A DNA stretch of 36,944 nucleotides, taken from contig CAKKPG010000120.1 in NCBI GenBank assembly GCA_919901555.1, positions 1 to 36,944 on the forward strand. Direction: 5' to 3'. A program made the position numbers and the translations under genes. The notes under the pieces were generated by a model, which saw nothing but the letters and a program-made list of their open reading frames with translations, had not been told where the DNA came from and did no database searches. The stretch comes from Nitrospiria bacterium. GTDB taxonomy: Bacteria; Nitrospirota; UBA9217. This document shows, piece by piece, positions 23,711 through 31,058 of the stretch; within the stretch, counting starts at the first letter, position 1; each line of letters starts with the position of its first letter.

Positions 23711-23899
23711 GTAACTGCTCAGGTCTGCCGCTGAGCACAGGCGCAAAAAAGCGCGCCGCGACAATCATGGCAGCGCCGCTTCAGCCAAAACAGCGCTTGC
23801 GCAGCGAAAGCGCTGCGGGTACGGGCGCCGACAGCGTGAAGGGCGATAGGACACCGGCGCGCCTTGCGCCGAAGCGAAGTGGCTGACCTGAGTAGTTAC
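23711..23899. repeat. 189-bp GC-rich MITE-like element with 15-bp terminal inverted repeats
   Basis: GTAACTGCTCAGGTC (23711-23725) matches the reverse complement of 23885-23899 at 14 of 15 positions, and partial similarity continues inward for about 11 more bases. Inside are nested hairpins: GCGC-AAAAAA-GCGC, CAGCGCTT...AAGCGCTG and GGCGC...GCGCC. The 8-base flanks on either side do not match, so a target duplication is not seen. A 39-codon frame (23767-23886) inside has no ribosome site. The element is far more GC-rich than the AT-rich sequence around it. It may be a non-autonomous insertion element or a folded RNA gene. Confidence 0.6.
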
Positions 23900-24736: not shown

Positions 24737-25159
24737 ATGGAGCTGATGAAAACTTACAGGGACTTTATTAAGATCACGACCGATGAGACCATGGAGATCC
24801 GGGACATCACCGGCGAGGTCTCCCAGATCCTGGCGAAGAGCGGCATCAAGGACGGCATGGTGCTCCTGTTTCCGCACCACACCAGCGCCGCGGTCTACCT
24901 GAGCGATTCCGACCGGAGCCTCACCGAGGACTTTGCCGCTCTGATGCGGAGGCTCATACCCGAGGCGGAGTACCGGCACAACCTGTCGGATGCCAAGAAA
25001 AACGCCCGGGCCCATCTGATGTCTCAGCTCGTGGGCCACAGCCTGACCCTGCCTGTTACGGAAGGGGGCCTGGATCTCGGCGTGTACCAGACGGTATATT
25101 ACGCCGAGTTCGACGGAAAGCGCGAAAAAGAGGTTCTGGTCAAGATTATCGGTGAATGA
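24737..25159 (+). CDS. YjbQ/UPF0047 family protein (secondary thiamine-phosphate synthase-like)
   Basis: This 140-residue protein matches the family along its whole length: LFPHHTSAAVYLSDSD with the conserved His pair, and EYRHNLSDAKKNARAHLMSQ. It continues GHSLTLPVTEGGLDLGVYQTVYYAEFDG near the end. The family shows weak thiamine-phosphate synthase activity in E. coli; the main role is unknown. ATG 24737 has a close GGAG. ATG 24746 could be the start and would remove three residues. Confidence 0.88.
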   Translation: MELMKTYRDFIKITTDETMEIRDITGEVSQILAKSGIKDGMVLLFPHHTSAAVYLSDSDRSLTEDFAALMRRLIPEAEYRHNLSDAKKNARAHLMSQLVGHSLTLPVTEGGLDLGVYQTVYYAEFDGKREKEVLVKIIGE

Positions 25160-25285
25160 CGCCTGACCCGGCAAGAGGGAACCAGGATCTTTGAACCCCG
25201 CCGAGGCGCGGCAAGCGTCTTTTGCCTGTCAGCAAGAAGCAGACGGGTACGTCACGAAAGGGTATTCAGGGGGGAACGAAATAGT

Positions 25286-25690
25286 ATGAAACGAATGAAC
25301 GTGGTATTGGCGGCGGTGACAACCATTTTTGCCGTTGCCGGGAGCGGCACGGTCTTTTCCCAGGACCACAAGGCTCCGCGCATCGAAATCAAGGAAGAAC
25401 GATTCGATTTCGGCAAGGTCACCCAGGGCGAGCAGGCCGTGCATGTGTTCGAGATCAGGAACGCCGGGAACGACGTTCTTGAAGTTCAAAAGGTCCAGAC
25501 CTCCTGAGGGTGCGCCGCAGGGCTGGTTAGTTCTAACCGGCTGGAACCAGGAGCTACGGGGCAGGTGAAGGTGAGCGTGGACACGACAGGCAGGAGCGGG
25601 CGCCTCACGAAACACATCACCGTCTATTCCAACGACCGCACGACGCCGGCGTTTACCATGACGGTGACCCTTGAGGTGGCGCCGCGGTAG
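25286..25690 (+). CDS. DUF1573 exported protein with in-frame TGA, likely selenocysteine
   Basis: The frame runs from ATG 25286 to TGA 25505-25507 and continues without interruption to TAG 25688-25690, giving 134 residues with read-through. A signal peptide (1-25, VFS-Q) is followed by IEIKEERFDFGKVTQGEQAV and FEIRNAGNDVLEVQKVQTS. Then come U74-G75-C76 and, after it, NRLEPGATGQVKVSVDTTGR, ITVYSNDRTTP and VTLEVAPR. DUF1573 proteins carry S-C-G-C at this place, then PG, G and ND motifs, all present here. The TGA is on the first Cys. Both halves match one family in one frame, so a frameshift is not needed. A SECIS-like hairpin follows. A mutation or sequencing error is the other reading. Confidence 0.82.
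25521..25542 (+). promoter_or_regulatory. SECIS-like hairpin after the TGA of the DUF1573 gene
   Basis: GGCTGGTT (25521-25528) pairs with AACCGGCT (25535-25542), with two GU pairs, around the loop AGTTCT (25529-25534). The loop starts 21 bases after the TGA. The E. coli fdhF SECIS has a stem ending GGTTGC, the loop AGGTCT, and 17 bases between UGA and loop, so size, position and loop sequence are alike. Confidence 0.65.
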
Positions 25691-25761: not shown

Positions 25762-26184
25762 ATGAACAAGGCACCGAAGAAATCACTGTCAAAAGCGAAG
25801 GAGCAGGTCACTTCGCGGACAAAGACGTTGCTTCAATCGGCGAAGAAAAAATTCGACGCTATCGATTTTCCACCCCTTTGGCAGAAGGTGAAGAAGGGGT
25901 TCGAGCAGACCGCAGAGGCCGTGGGAAAGGGGACGGAAAAGGCGGCGGAAAGGGCCGTATCCGCGGCAAAACGCGCAAGCGTCGAGTACAAAATCGTCGA
26001 ACACCGCCGGGAGCAGCAGAAGCTGTTTGCAGACCTCGGCGGCAGGGTCTATGATCTCATGAAACAAAGCCCCCAGGCCCTGAGTCCGAAGGACCCGCAC
26101 ATCATGGCGACGATCGACTCCCTGGCGATGACGGCGAAGAAGATCGCAGCGCTCGAGGAAGAAGCCGGGGCCCTCAAGAAATAG
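25762..26184 (+). CDS. Lys/Ala-rich helical protein of unknown function
   Basis: This 140-residue protein is preceded by AAAGGAGG 5 bases before the ATG. It is strongly basic at the N terminus (KAPKKSLSKAKEQVTSRTKT). A long amphipathic helical region follows (KKGFEQTAEAVGKGTEKAAERA), then FADLGGRVYDLMKQSP, and a predicted coiled coil to the end (IAALEEEAGALKK). No signal peptide or enzyme motif is present. The first part resembles apolipoprotein-like or YtxH-like helical proteins in composition only. The family is not recognised. Confidence 0.7.
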   Translation: MNKAPKKSLSKAKEQVTSRTKTLLQSAKKKFDAIDFPPLWQKVKKGFEQTAEAVGKGTEKAAERAVSAAKRASVEYKIVEHRREQQKLFADLGGRVYDLMKQSPQALSPKDPHIMATIDSLAMTAKKIAALEEEAGALKK

Positions 26185-27770: not shown

Positions 27771-29348
27771 ATGAAGGTCCTGATCAGCGACAACCTGTCC
27801 TCTACAGGGGTCGAAATACTCAAGAAGGCCGGGCTCGAGGTGGATGCCCGGAGCAAGACGAGCCCCGAGGAGATCGAGAAGATCATCGGCGACTACGACG
27901 CTCTGATCATCAGGTCGGCCACCAAGGTCACCGCGGCGCTGCTCGACAAGGCGACGAAGCTCAAGGTCGTGGGCCGCGCCGGCAGCGGCCTGGACAACGT
28001 GGACACCCCCGCGGCCACGAAAAAAGGGGTGGTGGTGATGAACACCCCGGGGGGCAACACGGTCACCACGGCAGAGCATACCATGGGAATGATCTTTGCC
28101 TGCGCCCGGATGATTCCCCAGGCCTATGCCTCGCTCAAGGCGGGCAAGTGGGAAAAGAAGAAGTTCGAGGGCGTGGAGCTTTACGACAAGACCCTCGGCG
28201 TCATCGGCCTGGGCGCCATCGGCGGCGTCGTGGCGAACCGGGCGATCGGACTCGGCATGAAGGTGCTGGCCTATGACCCGTTCATTTCCACGGAAAAGGC
28301 CAAGAGCCTCGGGATCGAGCTCGCCGACCTGCCCGCGCTCTACAAACGGTCCGATTTCATCACGATCCACACGCCCAAGACCAAGGAGACGGCGAACCTT
28401 ATCAACAAGAACACCATCGCCCAGATGAAGGACGGGGTGCGCATCATTAACTGCGCCCGCGGCGGCATCGTAAACGAGCAGGACCTTTATGAAACCATGA
28501 AAAGCGGCAAGGTCGCGGCAGCGGCCTTTGACGTGTTCGAGAAGGAGCCGCCGGAGAACCACCCCCTCCTCACCCTGGAGAGCTTTATTGCAACGCCGCA
28601 TCTCGGCGCGTCCACGCAGGAGGCCCAGGAGAACGTGGCCGTGGCCATCGCCGAGCAGATCGTGGACTACCTTATCGCAGGGACCGTGCGGAACGCGGTG
28701 AACGTGCCGTCAGTGCCGGCGGACCAGCTCCCGACGCTCAGCCCCTACATCAATCTTGCCGAGCGGATGGGGTCCTTCGAGGCCCAGCTTTACGAGGGAG
28801 GCCTCACGCAGGTGACGGTGGAATACAGCGGCGAGGTGGCGAACCTCAAGCTCGAGCCCATCACCCTCGCGGCGCTCAAGGGGCTGCTCACGCCGATCCT
28901 CAAGGAGAACGTGAACTACGTGAACGCGCCGCTCATCGCCAAGGACCGGGGCATCGAGGTCAAAGTGTCCAGTTCGAGCGATACCCGGGAATATACGAGC
29001 CTCATCACGCTCAAGGTCAAGACGAACGGGAAGGAAATGTTCGTGGCGGGCACGCTCAACAGCAAGAAGGAGCCGCGCATCGTGCAGGTGGATAACTTTC
29101 CCATGGAGGCGGTTCCCGACGGAGACATGCTGGTGCTCATGAACAACGACAAGCCGGGCGTGATCGGCGGCATCGGCACGCTGCTGGGCCAGAACGGCAT
29201 CAATATCGCGCGCATGCAGTTCGGCCGCGAGACGGCCGGCGGCCTGGCGGTCTCCGTCGTGAGCATCGACAGCCCCGTCTCCGATGAGCTGATGGAGAAG
29301 ATCAAGAAGCTCCCGAACGTGCTGTCGGTGAAGCAAATCAGAATATAG
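27771..29348 (+). CDS. serA: D-3-phosphoglycerate dehydrogenase
   Basis: This 525-residue enzyme oxidises 3-phosphoglycerate to 3-phosphohydroxypyruvate, the first step of serine synthesis. Seen are the NAD motif G146-x-G148-x2-G151 (GVIGLGAIGG), the catalytic Arg in INCARGGIVNE, the Glu in KEPPENHPLL and the His in TPHLGAST. The C-terminal third has the intervening domain and an ACT domain (MLVLMNNDKPGVIGGIGTLL) that can bind serine. The length is that of the long type of SerA. ATG 27771 is preceded by GGAGG. The upstream in-frame 24 codons are repeat-encoded. Confidence 0.95.
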   Translation: MKVLISDNLSSTGVEILKKAGLEVDARSKTSPEEIEKIIGDYDALIIRSATKVTAALLDKATKLKVVGRAGSGLDNVDTPAATKKGVVVMNTPGGNTVTTAEHTMGMIFACARMIPQAYASLKAGKWEKKKFEGVELYDKTLGVIGLGAIGGVVANRAIGLGMKVLAYDPFISTEKAKSLGIELADLPALYKRSDFITIHTPKTKETANLINKNTIAQMKDGVRIINCARGGIVNEQDLYETMKSGKVAAAAFDVFEKEPPENHPLLTLESFIATPHLGASTQEAQENVAVAIAEQIVDYLIAGTVRNAVNVPSVPADQLPTLSPYINLAERMGSFEAQLYEGGLTQVTVEYSGEVANLKLEPITLAALKGLLTPILKENVNYVNAPLIAKDRGIEVKVSSSSDTREYTSLITLKVKTNGKEMFVAGTLNSKKEPRIVQVDNFPMEAVPDGDMLVLMNNDKPGVIGGIGTLLGQNGINIARMQFGRETAGGLAVSVVSIDSPVSDELMEKIKKLPNVLSVKQIRI

Positions 29349-29370
29349 AATTCAAAATGCAGAGTGAAAA

Positions 29371-30817
<1,447 letters not shown>

Positions 30818-30954: not shown

Positions 30955-30975
30955 TGTAACCGAAAAACATTGAAG

Positions 30976-31058
30976 ATTGGAAATTGTAAATTTTGCCGGT
31001 TGAGGTCGTTTTCCCATTTTGCAATTTCCAATTTCAAATTTTCAATTTTCAATTCGCT
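30976..31058. repeat. AT-rich inverted repeat between the two tRNA genes
   Basis: ATTGGAAATTG (30976-30986) and CAATTTCCAAT (31022-31032) are perfect inverted 11-mers, followed by TTTCAA and TTTTCAATT units. The same 11-mer occurs at the start of cusB (3942-3952). Confidence 0.6.

Follow-up and report, generated by a model that had tools for sequence, protein, structure and literature searches.

A Nitrospirota DUF1573 gene with an in-frame UGA and a downstream hairpin as a predicted OS_HP2-type selenoprotein

Our analysis of a 36,944-nt stretch of DNA from a Nitrospiria bacterium (the window) points to a gene for a DUF1573 selenoprotein, in which an in-frame UGA at positions 25505-25507 is, judging by its relatives across the phylum, almost certainly read as selenocysteine (Sec). 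We consider it quite likely that the full explanation is an exported protein of the DUF1573/OS_HP2 type, with the UGA decoded by means of a hairpin and with Sec and a nearby cysteine acting as a redox couple. To our knowledge, DUF1573 occurs widely among exported proteins of bacteria, and no function is known for it. When most members in a phylum have Sec in place of the domain's first cysteine, under a covarying SECIS element, this shows which residue bears the chemistry and opens the function to testing.

The selenoprotein family itself is already known, and the window gene is a further OS_HP2-type case. Proteins with a DUF1573 domain (pfam07610) and a UGC (UxC) motif were described by Zhang and Gladyshev in 2007-2008 under the name OS_HP2, selenoprotein catalogues include a DUF1573 domain-containing protein (PF07610, UGC), and the GOS survey counted 2 Sec versus 354 Cys sequences for OS_HP2 (pfam07610, UxC) (PMC2398784, PMC9312934, PMC13188914). 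With this record, and with an NCBIfam model, NF041425, that bears the title “OS_HP2 family (seleno)protein”, the novelty implied by an earlier, sequence-only reading of the window does not hold. The window gene has what the literature uses to define OS_HP2, a pfam07610 domain with Sec in U-G-C, and thus shares its domain family, Sec position and motif; the known hosts of OS_HP2, however, are a marine deltaproteobacterium or ocean metagenomes, whereas the relatives of the window gene are found in Nitrospirota. What was less expected than the family is how far it dominates in Nitrospirota, that it is fused to cytochromes and that it has tandem versions with two predicted Sec residues and shifted motifs, and for none of these three did we find a report in the open literature (many subscription papers lie outside it). 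The case is of interest for how common the family is here and how its proteins are built, and not for the family as such.

The gene, its in-frame UGA and the hairpin

The gene occupies positions 25286-25690 and, with UGA as Sec, encodes 134 aa that include U74 and C76; the gene, its neighbours and all of its elements given below are on the forward strand. The lone in-frame TGA is the one at 25505-25507, and the remainder of the frame is open when TGA is translated as U (MKRMNVVLAAVTTIFAVAGSGTVFSQ... to ...TSUGCAAGLVSSNRLEPG...). A Shine-Dalgarno-like AGGGGGG is located at 25268-25274, 11 nt 5' of the ATG, and positions 25286-25363 encode a putative signal peptide (MKRMNVVLAAVTTIFAVAGSGTVFSQ), a signal-like N-terminus from which we predict that the protein is exported. 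The PF07610 (DUF1573) profile matches residues 33-122 with 86.8 bits (gathering cut-off 26.1 bits), spanning the TGA, and the approximately 60 residues after the UGA complete the domain. Alignment of homologues places the TGA at the first Cys of (S/T)-C-G-C, so the sequence-only reading had the frame, its coordinates and its motifs right, and its description of an exported DUF1573 protein with a U-G-C motif is supported as well. The first-Cys column of CGC is TGA in 96 sequences from 81 genomes and TGC or TGT in 21 Cys homologues, while the partner cysteine C76 (TGC, 25511-25513) is invariant in the family alignment and the U-G-C motif is present in 81 of the 96 Sec forms. Cys-containing members of PF07610 have a full-length domain like that of the window protein and are alike in all but the Sec codon.

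The best NCBIfam match of the protein is NF041425 (OS_HP2), which covers residues 35-131 with 87.2 bits and does not reach the curated cut-off of 100. The siblings and other single-domain forms from Nitrospirota that were scored also fall below it, at 78.6-90.5, while a tandem form scores 143. Because this cut-off misses single-domain forms, standard annotation is likely to split single-domain Sec-DUF1573 genes into halves at the UGA, and automatic annotation would therefore probably not rescue the window gene. The adjacent genes are recorded here as neighbours only: upstream, a UPF0047 (YjbQ-type) gene at 24737-25159 (PF01894, 119 bits), and downstream, a gene at 25762-26184 for a 140-aa protein without an accepted domain. 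Gene order at the locus is syntenic within the family, and because the neighbours are housekeeping genes they are uninformative on function. Elsewhere in the window, a REP/MITE-like element of approximately 189 bp is located between a TtcA-like and an MshEN gene (23711-23899) and has at its ends inverted repeats of 15 nt that mismatch at one position (GTAACTGCTCAGGTC / GACCTGAGTAGTTAC), and AT-rich intergenic palindromes are found after serA (29347-29463, arms of 39 nt) and between the tRNA-Lys and tRNA-Glu genes (30966-31042, arms of 25 nt).

The putative SECIS hairpin at 25522-25541 consists of a 7-bp stem (25522-25528 with 25535-25541) and the 6-nt loop AGTTCT (AGUUCU) at 25529-25534, with a spacing of 21 nt from TGA to loop. 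This fits the model for bacterial SECIS elements, which have a loop of 3-9 nt, a stem of 4-16 bp, a G in the first two loop positions and a distance of 16-37 nt from the UGA. The loop can also be drawn as a closing A-U pair plus GUUC, and an extra G-U pair extends the hairpin to the 25521-25542 given in the sequence-only reading. The window hairpin resembles the SECIS of E. coli fdhF and the bacterial consensus model in its small apical loop, which has G in its first two positions and then U, in the distance of 21 nt between UGA and loop, and in its 7-bp stem; the loop here is AGUUCN, which differs from that of fdhF.

For this sequence alone, the RNAfold energy is unremarkable (z about 0) because the region is GC-rich. 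When the same residues were recoded synonymously with the codon usage of the window, all 7 pairs arose at this register in 0.4% of the recoded sequences, the 7 pairs plus the closing A-U pair in 0.09%, and any 7-bp hairpin that obeys the SECIS spacing and loop rule in 3.6%. The comparative evidence, drawn from alignments, is decisive for a predicted hairpin beyond chance and coding constraint. Across 84 U-G sequences, a mean of 6.10 of the 7 stem pairs could form, compared to 5.36 +/- 0.05 (maximum 5.54) in 2,000 permutations that exchanged codons only between sequences sharing the amino acid at a column and so left every protein unchanged; none of the permutations gave a value as high. All seven pairs occurred in 42 of these 84 sequences, against 15.3 after permutation (maximum 24). 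In a set of 29 aligned sequences, 95.1% of cells pair versus 78.5% when shuffled and 14-44% when the arms are slid by 1-3 columns, both sides of the stem have changed in a compensatory manner at 5 of the 7 pairs, and RNAalifold recovers the same stem unprompted. The Cys homologues, which differ from the window gene in having neither UGA nor hairpin, average 2.95 of 7 pairs. This covariation beyond protein constraint supports a SECIS role for the hairpin, as the sequence-only reading proposed, and, together with the recurrence of TGA at the column, its proposal that the UGA encodes Sec. The Rfam model RF00031 (SECIS_1) had no match in the window's own genome or in any control genome and is hence uninformative.

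The Sec form and its decoding machinery in Nitrospirota

We searched 396 Nitrospirota genomes at a threshold of E <= 1e-12 and found a match in 102, with the TGA form in 81 of the 102, across 14 families. By these sequence counts, a selenoprotein family thought to be rare appears to be the usual form of DUF1573 across much of the phylum. Within the window's own family (f1), each of the 12 siblings that carry the gene has a single TGA, always at this column (13 of 13 when the window's own genome is included), so that the check on the same clade proposed by the sequence-only reading comes out in its favor, and the frame decay that could have contradicted it is not seen after the TGA, where 0 of 16 conserved columns are changed versus 2 of 13 before it. 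Cys forms in Nitrospirota occur in families f2, f3, f4 and f8 and in one f17 genome, and those outside the phylum come from Aminicenantes, Ignavibacteria, Acidobacteria, Desulfuromonadales and anammox planctomycetes. In a tree of both forms the Sec sequences are strongly clustered, with 4 changes compared to 32.5 after shuffling; the tree has few columns and does not fix the number of origins. A scan of genome contigs with the single window protein found no relatives, and one with the family alignment returned Cys forms only, because its pattern requires a Cys codon at the Sec column. Viral contigs gave no relative, and plasmids gave only distant matches (32-35% identity; DUF1573 where annotated). 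Two additional DUF1573 matches were observed among the genomes of this family: a second, distant one in the window's own genome (G000:C70:2472-2732, L002; 27.9 bits) within a 521-aa frame without a stop, and, in one of the siblings, a Sec-DUF1573 paralogue that is the second in that genome (G006:C41:64238-64537, L175).

The machinery for Sec decoding follows the TGA form, with SelA/SelB in 14 of 16 TGA-form genomes versus 5 of 20 Cys-form genomes (Fisher P = 0.0002, a rough figure, as the genomes are related). The window's own genome (G000; 3.45 Mb in 220 contigs, 96.5% complete) contains a tRNA-Sec with anticodon TCA (UCA) that scores 61.7 bits, compared to 59.9-66.1 in the siblings, and a SelD (G000:C10:23074-23988, L212) that is in turn predicted to contain Sec, since its frame has a TGA where Sec is usual in SelD (SHGAGU-ACKLG). 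It also contains two molybdopterin formate dehydrogenases of 892 and 1058 aa (G000:C111:12253-13527, L311, and G000:C148:2759-4234, L319), which are otherwise intact and have Sec at the canonical site, AR(Y/I)-U-HSATVA. Neither SelA nor SelB turned up in this 220-contig assembly, in which the SelB search matched best to EF-Tu, IF-2 and LepA, so the sequence-only reading's call for Sec machinery is answered by the clade and by the genome's own tRNA-Sec and SelD, but not by its own SelA and SelB, and this is the main caveat on Sec decoding. Most siblings have selA and selB, siblings carry the two genes next to each other, and several have the order phosphoesterase, selA, selB, MFS or Kef transporter, tRNA-Sec. 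In the window's own genome both flanks of this locus are found, the phosphoesterase on C126 and the MFS-Kef-tRNA-Sec block on C7, but no selA-selB lies between them; the locus has therefore moved, is missing from the assembly (in a gap) or, less likely, has been lost. Signs of rearrangement are seen at G000:C7:1711-5455 (L019), where the MFS gene is broken and three partial copies of its N-terminus are next to tRNA-Sec, in the place of selB in siblings.

Two explanations would leave the UGA as a stop. A single in-frame stop is the usual appearance of a pseudogene, but the same codon at the same column in so many genomes, with a covarying hairpin, refutes an ordinary stop, a pseudogene or a sequencing error, to which we give next to no chance. 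The other is that this lineage has recently lost SelA and SelB, so that the TGA now terminates translation and the gene is an intact-looking relic; the missing selA and selB, the syntenic neighbours present without them and the broken, partly duplicated MFS gene are what this would predict. Four Sec-encoding frames (DUF1573, SelD and the two formate dehydrogenases) and tRNA-Sec are intact, however, with no spoiling at the conserved columns after the TGA, the assembly is fragmented (220 contigs) and 96.5% complete, and selA/selB are often at contig edges or partly missing in siblings (G007, G011, G012 and G013). We regard a relic as very improbable.

Predicted fold and candidate function

AlphaFold gives the protein a mean pLDDT of 87.3, with about 97 in the domain, which begins at residue 33, and low confidence for residues 1-20. 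The predicted fold is, with high confidence, a PapD/HYDIN-type Ig beta-sandwich of eight strands; the loop that contains U74-G75-C76 connects strands 65-72 and 77-81. The best Foldseek match is 2qsv, a protein of unknown function from Porphyromonas, followed by HYDIN and the PapD-like Ig domains of VesB/VesC, and a profile search agrees with these PapD-like matches. The window version is a single domain with no cytochrome attached, while 32 of the 96 Sec forms and 17 of the 21 Cys forms have the domain fused to a C-terminal cytochrome c (Cytochrome_CBB3, two CXXCH). Given Sec at the first Cys across Nitrospirota, the U-G-C loop must presumably be reactive, and the cytochrome fusions suggest a destination for the electrons. 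The Sec residue, the invariant partner Cys and the fusions together lead us to favor, with some reserve, a redox-active U-G-C pair, a reading that is strengthened because relatives are fused to c-type cytochromes. A few relatives have no second Cys (UGA-D, UGS, UGG, UKRA), and the U-C pair is therefore not obligatory everywhere.

Most likely, the protein would be a periplasmic selenol-thiol redox protein with a PapD/Ig fold, linked to cytochrome-based electron flow. By analogy with the known bacterial mechanism, SelB with Sec-tRNA-Sec would bind the hairpin at 25522-25541 when the ribosome reaches the UGA at 25505-25507, and selenocysteine would be inserted in place of termination, allowing the rest of the domain to be made. 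The protein would then be exported and fold with U74-G75-C76 in its loop, and the Sec/Cys pair would most likely act in the periplasm as a selenenylsulfide/selenol-thiol couple that hands on electrons or takes part in disulfide exchange, with the fused c-type cytochrome as its direct partner in many relatives.

The main functional rival to a redox role is that Sec is inserted, but that U-G-C serves as a copper ligand in a periplasmic metallochaperone. Cox11/CtaG has an Ig-like fold on the periplasmic side and a CFCF (C-x-C) copper site, and the window protein resembles it in its predicted Ig/PapD-like fold and exposed C-x-C-type motif, by analogy only and with no membership claimed. Eight tandem-clade loci also occur with genes for NosD (copper-binding type), NosF/NosY-like ABC, AhpC-TSA/SCO1-like and cytochrome proteins. 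Still, Cox11 is absent from the top Foldseek matches, no copper genes are found next to the window locus, many family members are fused to c-type cytochromes rather than copper proteins, and Sec is nearly always retained for redox catalysis, so we judge a copper role unlikely. We think it similarly doubtful that the pair is structural or a passive redox switch, with a selenenylsulfide that holds an adhesion or carrier domain stable but undergoes no turnover. Domains of the Ig/PapD-like type usually serve for binding, and the relatives without a second Cys would be consistent with this, but selenium comes at a high cost and is seldom kept just to form a structural bond, Sec has been retained over 14 families together with a covarying SECIS, and the fusions suggest electron flow.

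Motif variants and tandem forms

Departures from U-G-C were predicted from frames and hairpins in other Nitrospirota. One clade has a U-x-x-C motif instead (URAC, UKAC, URLC, URRC) and also a further Sec domain, in which the motif is U-K-(R/K)-A and Cys is absent; its SECIS retains the AGUUC loop at 24 nt from the UGA, in step with the one inserted codon. Four loci (L173, G373:C46; L180, G395:C41; L186, G349:C267; L192, G155:C23) have two in-frame TGAs, and thus two predicted Sec residues, in a single tandem DUF1573 frame that carries the motifs U-R-x-C and U-K-(R/K)-A with SECIS-like hairpins. Genes next to these four tandem frames encode NosD-type, ABC, AhpC-TSA, transglutaminase-like and cytochrome proteins. 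These observations allow a bolder and tentative proposal, which we hold to be possible though doubtful: Sec-DUF1573 may be a major, overlooked periplasmic selenoprotein of Nitrospirota and a new selenol-based electron carrier, in which a PapD/Ig fold bears a U-G-C couple that trades electrons with c-type cytochromes, often within one fusion protein, and of which a tandem version with two Sec residues (U-R-A-C plus U-K-R-A) has been derived and belongs to a NosD/ABC/cytochrome gene cluster. Three further loci (L174, L190 and L195) encode Sec DUF1573 forms in which the second Cys is replaced (UGAD, UGSR and UGGT), and L187, L193, L194 and L196 have relatives with one Sec in the gene cluster of the tandem forms.
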